A DNA stretch of 64,000 nt from Sphaerochaeta halotolerans (GTDB lineage Bacteria; Spirochaetota; Spirochaetia; Sphaerochaetales; Sphaerochaetaceae). The stretch covers positions 1-64,000 of the forward strand of contig NZ_QUWK01000013.1 of assembly GCF_003429665.1 (NCBI RefSeq), written 5' to 3'. Below the pieces are notes generated by a model. The model made no database searches. It saw nothing but the letters and a program-made list of their open reading frames with translations, and was not told the DNA's origin. Below are positions 7,257 to 49,563 of this stretch, one piece after another. The first letter of the stretch is position 1; every line of letters starts with the position of its first letter. The position numbers and the translations under genes are program-made.

Positions 7257-8043
7257 ATGAAGACACAGACCTTTTCCATCCTCGGCGATTCCATCTCCAC
7301 CTTTGCAGGTTTTGTCCCTGATGAGAACGAAATCTTCTACCCCCGTGAGGGAGTGGATGTAACTCAAGTGGAACACACCTGGTGGTATCTCCTCCAAGAA
7401 CGTACAGGACTAAAACTCCTGATGAATGAAAGGTATCAATACCCCAGGGCAAGCCCTGGACTCAGGAGGCGTTGCCTCCTTTTCCGCCCCAAGGGACGGG
7501 TTATCTCACCTTGCTTTCCCGGCACTCTCTCGGGAGAGGAACCTTCCTGCTGATTCCTTTCCTCTCGCTCCGTTGGGGAATGAGTCTTATTCTGGAAGCA
7601 GGATAAGCAGAACAGGAGTCCGACCTCCCTCCTCTTCCTTCTTGGACGAGAAAAGGCAACAGCGGTTGACAGGGAACATCATCATTGTATTCGGAGGAAC
7701 CAACGACTGGGGACAGGCTGAAGAACCTACCACCATTGAGGTATTTCAAGAAGCATATGAAACACTGGTGAGTGATATGCCTGCAAGACACAAATCGAGC
7801 ACATTGTACTTCTGTACCCCGCTGCAACGGACAGACAGGGGCCTTAGGGAAGAGAACATCCACCACTGGAACCAGAAAGACCTTGCTGGGAGTATTCACG
7901 AGATTGTTTCTAGGCATGAAGGAGTCAACCTCATTGACCTTGCGAGCTACCCGATCAAGGCCGGTGATGGGCTTCTCGCTGACGGATTACACCCCAGCAT
8001 GGAAGTACTGGCTACCCTGATGCAAAAAGGACTGGGGCTTTAG
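7257..8043 (+). pseudogene. SGNH/GDSL hydrolase, split by repeat insertion
   Basis: The N-terminal part reads FSILGDSISTFAGFVP ... VEHTWWYLLQERTGLKLLMN, with the GDS nucleophile block. The C-terminal part resumes NESYSGSRISRTG, then IIIVFGGTNDWGQ (block III) and LADGLHPSMEV (catalytic Asp/His). Between LLMN and NESY lies a 149-bp repeat core plus a 5-base duplication (AATGA), 154 bp in all. This is not a multiple of three, so the two halves are in different frames and the upstream frame stops at 7553. Removing the insert joins the halves exactly. Intact relatives are esterase-like hydrolases of about 210 residues. The insertion looks recent because both halves are otherwise open. Confidence 0.85.
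7425..7583. repeat. 149-bp multi-hairpin repeat, copy 1, with AATGA duplication
   Basis: Core 7430-7578, flanked on both sides by AATGA (7425-7429 and 7579-7583), consistent with a 5-base target duplication. It contains consecutive hairpins: GGTAT/ATACC (7432-7443), CAGGGC/GCCCTG (7445-7458), AGGAGGC/GCCTCCT (7464-7480), CCGcCCC/GGGaCGG (7484-7499) and GAGAGGAA/TTCCTCTC (7534-7566). A second copy at 49405-49563 is identical at all but 5 of 149 core positions. No protein that would move it is encoded inside. It resembles a MITE- or REP-like non-autonomous element, but I do not recognise the family. Confidence 0.85.
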
Positions 8044-48815: not shown

Positions 48816-49079
48816 ATGGGACACCAGACTGTAAATATAAATTTTCGCATGGATGCAGAGTTGAAAAGCAACTTGGAGAAAGCCTGCCAAGAACTTGGCT
48901 TGACCCCTACTGCGGCTTTCACCATTTTTGCTACCAAAGTGGCAAGGGAGAGACGTATCCCTTTTGAGGTTGCTGTCGATCCATTCTACAGCGAGCGAAA
49001 CATGGCGAGGCTCAGGAAATCGATTGCCCAGATGGAATCGACCGGCGGCACAATCCACGAGGTGGATGTTAGTGATTAA
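48816..49079 (+). CDS. RelB/DinJ-family antitoxin
   Basis: An 87-residue RelB/DinJ protein: ribbon-helix-helix N-terminus (TVNINFRMDAELKSNLEKAC, LGLTPTAAFTIFATKVA) and a C-terminal toxin-binding tail. It would neutralise the YoeB-type toxin encoded by the next gene, which overlaps its end, and autorepress the promoter. Because the toxin gene is broken, the antitoxin may now act alone, either as a repressor or against other toxins. Confidence 0.9.
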   Translation: MGHQTVNINFRMDAELKSNLEKACQELGLTPTAAFTIFATKVARERRIPFEVAVDPFYSERNMARLRKSIAQMESTGGTIHEVDVSD

Positions 49080-49335
49080 GGCTTGGTCAGACGATGCTTG
49101 GGAGGATTTTGAGTACTGGACACAGCAGGATAAGAAAACCTTAAAGCGAATCTTGTCACTTCTCTGAGATATCGACAGGAATGGGTACAAAGGAATCGGT
49201 AAACCGGAGCGGTTATCTGGGAACCTTGCACCGTATTGGAGCCGAAGGATTGATGATTGCAACCGCTTGGTTTACCGTATCGATGGGAATGTCATTCGCA
49301 TCGTTCAATGTGGATCGCATTATCGGGATAGATGA
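49066..49335 (+). pseudogene. yoeB: YoeB-type mRNA interferase with nonsense codon
   Basis: The frame from ATG 49066 reads VIKAWSDDAWEDFEYW and KTLKRILSLL, meets TGA at 49165-49167 (codon 34), then continues DIDRNGYKGIGKPERLSGNL, YWSRRIDDCNRLVYRI and CGSHYRD to a normal stop at 49335. This is a complete YoeB/Txe toxin with catalytic Glu, Arg and His-Tyr residues intact, interrupted where relatives have Arg; CGA to TGA is a single change. It overlaps the antitoxin gene by 14 bases. It should be inactive unless the stop is read through. Confidence 0.88.
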
Positions 49336-49404: not shown

Positions 49405-49563
49405 AATGAAAGGTATCAATACCCCAGGGCAAGCCCTGTACTCAGGAGGCGTTGCCTCCTTTTCCGCCCCAAGGGACGGGGTATCTCACCTTGCTTTCCC
49501 GGCACTCGCTCGGGAGAGGAACCATCATGCTGATTCCTTTCCTCTCGCTCCGTTGGGGAATAA
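49405..49563. repeat. 149-bp multi-hairpin repeat, copy 2
   Basis: Core 49410-49558, same orientation as copy 1 at 7425-7583 and differing at 5 of 149 positions. Flanks are AATGA (49405-49409) and AATAA (49559-49563), so a 5-base duplication here is imperfect. In this copy ATACCCC near the start can also pair with GGGGTAT after the fourth hairpin, closing a multi-stem structure. It lies between the broken toxin gene and arm B of the direct repeat. Confidence 0.85.

Follow-up and report, generated by a model that had tools for sequence, protein, structure and literature searches.

Palindrome-associated transposable elements (PATEs) have been described in Haloquadratum walsbyi (PMC3119063), with a further one in Halanaerobium (PMC7290912). 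In the IS200/IS605 group, target choice by IS608 is directed by a guide that has been altered experimentally (PMC5934647), and IS200/IS605 elements follow replication in the same strand pattern as that reported below (PMC5371812). REP sequences are defined as hairpins of 21–65 nt with a GTAG/GTGG foot (PMC6006769). We analyzed a 64-kb window, the whole stretch of DNA under study and part of contig C4 of a 2.93-Mb draft Sphaerochaeta genome (G000), and found two copies of a 154-bp repeat that is very probably a non-autonomous IS200/IS605-type (Y1 HUH) element of the PATE kind, one that would move by peel-and-paste as guide-directed single-stranded DNA. The repeat displays every PATE feature that is testable here: a fixed 5′ target, no target duplication or terminal inverted repeats, near-terminal hairpins, IS-like ends and a replication-linked orientation. 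An earlier note on this DNA did not recognize the family and suggested that it may be undescribed; its behavior places it with IS200/IS605-type PATEs, and searches of Rfam and the literature found no description of the family itself.

As that note had observed, the cores of the two copies (7430–7578 and 49410–49558) are nearly identical (96.6% identity, E=2e-66) within unrelated surroundings, and no open reading frame for a transposase lies inside the element. A 26-base internal pattern of the core matched 75 times in the genome and its reversed control pattern 0 times, placing the repeat number far above chance, and a covariance model gave 83 matches. The dispersed repeat, with ~80 copies in this genome, is therefore real, and searches of relatives recovered further copies. 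The 53 full copies differ pairwise by a mean of 7.9 of 149 bases, and short copies of ~105–115 bp lack the 5′ hairpin and keep both ends. Several contigs start or end inside or at copies (C9:1-135 and the right ends of C10 and C14 in G000, and contig ends in G021), so that true copy numbers are probably above these counts. At one locus (L009, C43:167937-168287) two copies in the same orientation are spaced by ~50 bases. Just upstream of window copy 2, a gene at 49074–49335, which by eye we take to encode the YoeB-type toxin of a toxin-antitoxin pair, is interrupted by an in-frame TGA, also read by eye.

The following features lie at and around the two window copies:

7257–7424, plus strand: 5′ part of a GDSL/SGNH hydrolase gene, in frame with 7579–8043 across the insertion
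7425–7578, minus strand: element copy 1, 154 bp, 5′-CCCCAACGG...GATACCTTTCATT-3′, delimited by empty sites and the flanks of 75 copies
7425–7429, minus strand: right-end cleavage site (TTTCATT) of the element, a constant AATGA in 50 of 53 full copies that is absent from the L021 empty site
7579–7583, minus strand: pre-existing target site of copy 1, TCATT, seen as a single AATGA in L249
7579–8043, plus strand: 3′ part of the GDSL/SGNH hydrolase gene
49405–49558, minus strand: element copy 2, 154 bp
49559–49563, minus strand: target site of copy 2, TTATT

Copy 1 cuts the SGNH gene, whose halves rejoin in frame as the note had proposed, and the empty site that it suggested looking for exists in a congener: the homologue in Sphaerochaeta sp. 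MAG3 (L249:6781-7419:-), a GDSL lipase/acylhydrolase gene, is intact and carries a single AATGA at the insertion point. The letters AATGA do flank copy 1 on both sides, but the 5-bp target duplication read from them does not hold. At all loci, the left 5-mer of the 53 full copies is nearly constant (AATGA 50, GATGA 2, TATGA 1) and the right 5-mer fits AAT[G/A/C]A in all copies but one, corresponding to a minus-strand target [not A]T[not A]ATT with a TNATT core in which ATT is present in 53 of 53 full copies and the first T in 52 of 53. Three loci with empty sites bear on duplication, and the two 5-mers are distinguishable at one of them. At this locus (L021), a copy in the end of an IS605 tnpA gene has AATGA on its left and AATAA on its right; the site is empty in a second tnpA copy (L105) and in a homologue (L114), and the L105 empty site ...GGCAATAAAATT... 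contains the right-hand AATAA and lacks the left-hand AATGA. The other two loci, a Fic-type gene (filled in L043; empty in L047, at 94% identity, and in the genome's own paralogue L091) and the SGNH gene compared with L249, have the same geometry with a gap of 0. At a further copy (L079:2721), joining the flanks restores MKQLGIRAHDLG only with the right-hand AATCA as the target. Rejoining of open reading frames was tried on all 75 copies and is informative for few genes only.

Because the left 5-mer is constant, the right one varies and the L021 empty site reads AATAA, the left AATGA belongs to the element and the right 5-mer is the target: AATGA is the element end at 7425–7429 and the target at 7579–7583, alike by preference. 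The recurrence of AATGA-like repeats expected of a duplication thus reduces to a constant left side that is part of the element, and the 149-bp boundary gives way to one of 154 bp. Read on the minus strand, the element runs from CCCC, immediately 3′ of TNATT, to a terminal TTTCATT, and no target is duplicated; the ends, CCCCAAC... and ...TTTCATT when read directly, form no terminal inverted repeats. A plus-strand reading, with insertion 3′ of AATGA, was rejected, as it would need AATGA in the L021 empty site and as the L079 and L043 genes rejoin only under the minus-strand model.

Insertion into the lagging-strand template predicts that the element strand lies on the G-rich strand, a prediction set before the test. 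With skew taken over 20-kb stretches or the window, the element sense lies on the G-rich strand in 46 of 51 copies (p=2e-9); local skew agrees for 57 of 75 copies in this genome (p=7e-6) and for 73 of 90 copies elsewhere, most of them from MAG3 (p=2e-9). Orientation is also coherent inside contigs, with 65 of 73 copies sharing the prevailing orientation of their contig, a value reached by 0 of 200,000 simulations, and on contig C11 it switches with the skew, one copy excepted. The strand placement is that expected for insertion into the lagging-strand template, and selection on gene orientation may add to the bias.

The chain of hairpins that the note saw in each copy is present, and the minus strand arranges it into a 5′ domain closed by a stem P1 and a 3′ domain in which a stem P2 surrounds three hairpins:

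7538–7557, minus strand: 5′ hairpin, enclosed by P1
7516–7580, minus strand: stem P1, in which target TT and element CCC pair with internal GGGAA, with double changes from CG to UA and GC
7430–7512, minus strand: stem P2 (AAGGT/ACCTT), which closes the domain of three hairpins adjoining the right end; 99.4% of cells are paired
7502–7505, minus strand: putative guide of the left end, GATA (X=G), at the foot of hairpin 1 on its 5′ side, from guide/target covariation in 32 genome-level cases
7484–7499, minus strand: hairpin 1 (consensus CCGCCCCTTGGGGCGG), shared with left ends of an IS200-like clade
7464–7480, minus strand: hairpin 2 (AGGAGGC-AAC-GCCTCCT), with double-sided changes at all five outer pairs among 34 sequences
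7444–7459, minus strand: hairpin 3 (CCAGGGCTTGCCCTGG)

In an alignment of 34 sequences from many genera, 93.5% of cells pair in the conserved fold, and P2 includes changes from A-U to U-A and G-C. Changes on both sides of a pair occur in 93 cells, compared with 20.8 in shuffles (0 of 500). Since the shuffles keep relatedness, most weight falls on the slid control, in which pairing drops to about half, and on how many pairs show double changes (24 versus 11.8). G-U pairs outnumber A-C mismatches by 54 to 22, which favors folding of the minus strand. On the evidence of this covariation, the folded minus strand is conserved across families.

At the foot of hairpin 1, the motif XATACC carries a base X that is complementary to N of the target TNATT. 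Counted by genome, X=A goes with TTATT in 7 of 8 cases, X=C with TGATT in 9 of 10 and X=G with TCATT in 8 of 14; one genome (G036) was moved by eye into the X=C group, in which it is a counterexample. Complementarity holds in 24 of 32 cases against a shuffled mean of 10.2 (p=1e-5, an optimistic value because the pattern was first spotted by eye in overlapping data), and the rule gains support from the finding of X=A, and likewise of X=C, in several families. The target rule is loose at X=G, with N in the copies of this genome being C 39, T 13, G 9 and A 1 times. At the right end, GATACC occurs with TCATT 66 times and AATACC with TTATT 2 times, with 2 exceptions, and the right ends of the IS200-like clade follow the same X/N rule (8 G/C and 3 A/T).

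These features suggest how the element may move, movement itself being something we infer from sequence comparison. At the replication fork, the lagging-strand template would be single-stranded and the minus-strand element sequence could fold, so positioning guide bases beside the hairpin feet to pair with the cleavage sites, TNATT at the left and TTTCATT at the right end. A Y1 transposase acting in trans would then excise a putative single-stranded circle, which would be pasted 3′ of another TNATT on the lagging-strand template without target duplication. The earlier proposal of a structured, non-autonomous element mobilized in trans is supported in this form.

Two other accounts of the repeat itself were weighed. 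A DDE-type MITE of the conventional sort, duplicating 5 bp of its target, would explain the AATGA that brackets copy 1 and most other copies, but the right 5-mer varies beside a constant left one, empty sites hold the right 5-mer only, with L021 refuting a duplication, terminal inverted repeats are lacking and orientation follows replication; we consider this account extremely improbable. Slightly better placed, and still improbable, is a repeat that is primarily a functional structured RNA, such as the guide RNA used by a nuclease resembling TnpB or IscB, and that spreads as a side effect. The conserved minus-strand fold is in line with the energy rules of RNA (copy 1, z=-1.4; copy 2, z=-3.6), and the excess of G-U pairs over A-C mismatches agrees with an RNA, but G-T pairs are expected for single-stranded DNA too, P1 takes in two target bases outside the element, as is natural for a cleavage complex, and the lack of any match among Rfam families counts against it. 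A search of this genome for the IscB-type RRXRR domain gave no match over the cut-off; the sole sub-threshold match lies in a 1403-aa open reading frame (L109, C38:158041) that is probably Cas9, and an IscB/HEARO system was set aside.

The note had suggested seeking an autonomous element with matching ends; an IS200-like clade shares the TTCATT end and the XATACC-hairpin motif. The elements of this clade use the target TTTATT, have right ends TTCATT or TTTATT and carry XATACC before a hairpin at both ends. The genome encodes an IS200-like TnpA at C4:75427-75876 (NCBIfam transpos_IS200, 123.8 bits against a cut-off of 55), an intact TTCATT-clade gene that lies 26 kb downstream of the second window copy, and the covariance model matches the left end of this IS200 from TTATT exactly (E=0.00038 in 951 bases). 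Overall similarity between the element and IS200 sequences is weak, with E values of 0.00038 for this genome's own IS200 and about 0.04–1.7 elsewhere. Within the genus, TTCATT-clade TnpA is confined to the two Sphaerochaeta genomes richest in copies (83 here and at least 114 in a congener), the second gene having a stop codon; class-wide, its presence does not correlate with the element and most copy-bearing genomes lack it. The IS605 of C47/C48, whose ends lack element motifs, and other IS200 types of the genus (L112, L113 and L116), whose ends differ, were rejected as partners. The mover is probably a TTCATT-clade TnpA acting in trans, either the one at C4:75427-75876 or a past relative, and we regard this as likelier than a role for a RAYT-like protein.

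This protein, encoded by a single-copy gene at C16:10001-10807, would make the element an unusually long REP-like substrate. It is a Y1 protein of ~270 aa with an HYH motif and a C-terminal extension, scores below the cut-off of NCBIfam REP_Tyr_transpos (62 of 80 bits), and its gene lies directly behind a dprA-like gene, presumably dprA itself to judge by its reading frame, in Sphaerochaeta and in certain other spirochaetes (L199; L200-L210, L349, L350). Among 26 Sphaerochaeta genomes, the gene is present in 9 of 10 carriers of the element, and 12 of the 13 genomes that lack it are free of the element (Fisher p=0.004), a closer match within the genus than that of TTCATT-clade TnpA, but the gene is inherited with dprA and shared ancestry may account for the association. 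RAYTs are single-stranded DNA nucleases tied to dispersed palindromes (PMC6006769, PMC8266576). In G359, a degenerate element copy lies about 100 bp downstream of the RAYT gene (L208), the one such case among 16 RAYT loci scanned; apart from it, RAYT loci lack element-type ends, whereas IS200-like elements share both the ends and the guide rule. Moreover, four genomes have the gene and lack the element (G004, G016, and, with partial genes, G020 and G024), and G056 and the f26 genomes contain many or diverged elements with no RAYT match at E<1e-10. A RAYT-like mover is thus a tentative second choice to TnpA. Somewhat more doubtful is the stronger proposal of a new REP-like system, in which the element would be the long-lived partner of a domesticated, dprA-linked RAYT-like protein. 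A host-encoded Y1 nuclease, not an IS transposase, would then spread the folded 154-nt DNA, whose guide consists of one reprogrammable base.

Of 26 Sphaerochaeta genomes, 10 contain related elements, and more diverged relatives occur in other families of class Spirochaetia; G056 has about 54 first-look candidate copies. Insertions at the same site occur across species (L103 in G000 and L048 in G025; L053 in G019 and L064 in G025; L066 in G011 and L067 in G013), and such common sites indicate old copies and vertical inheritance. One candidate carrier (G392) was discarded when its match proved to be an IS200-clade end (L196), and a search of IMG/VR viruses with the right-end pattern gave no match. 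As far as we searched, no description exists of the element family, of its fold conserved throughout the class or of the natural covariation between guide and target. Since a genome can hold some 80 to over 100 copies and empty sites are clear, these spirochaetes provide a large natural data set on guide/target pairing, on lagging-strand insertion and on the class-wide persistence of a gene-less single-strand transposon whose matching transposase is often missing.

Insertion-type MITEs are likewise short, non-autonomous and near-identical between copies, but the element has neither their terminal inverted repeats nor their target duplication. REP/REPIN-RAYT systems also combine many dispersed palindromic copies with a single-copy Y1 protein in the genome; the element differs in its 154-bp length, in an XATA foot and ends unlike the GT[AG]G tetranucleotide class, and in copies that also cut genes and do not cluster around the RAYT gene. 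Like IS608 and ISDra2 of the IS200/IS605 group, it inserts 3′ of a short target without duplication, has a guide at a hairpin foot and follows lagging-strand orientation, whereas it lacks tnpA and tnpB, uses a TNATT target with one base set by the guide and has several hairpins instead of one per end. The families with guides A, C and G, going to TTATT, TGATT and mostly TCATT, appear to be a natural counterpart of the experimental guide change in IS608. PATEs are closest: they too lack terminal inverted repeats and target duplication, have palindromes near their ends and a fixed target oligonucleotide, are too short for a transposase, and combine IS200/IS605-like ends and high copy number with a matching tnpA that is often missing or broken. 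Compared with PATEs, the 154-bp element has a two-domain fold of several hairpins and two long-range stems, with covariation across Spirochaetia families, and what it shares with an IS is the left-end hairpin, the guide and the cleavage sites, unlike a simple end-to-end deletion derivative.
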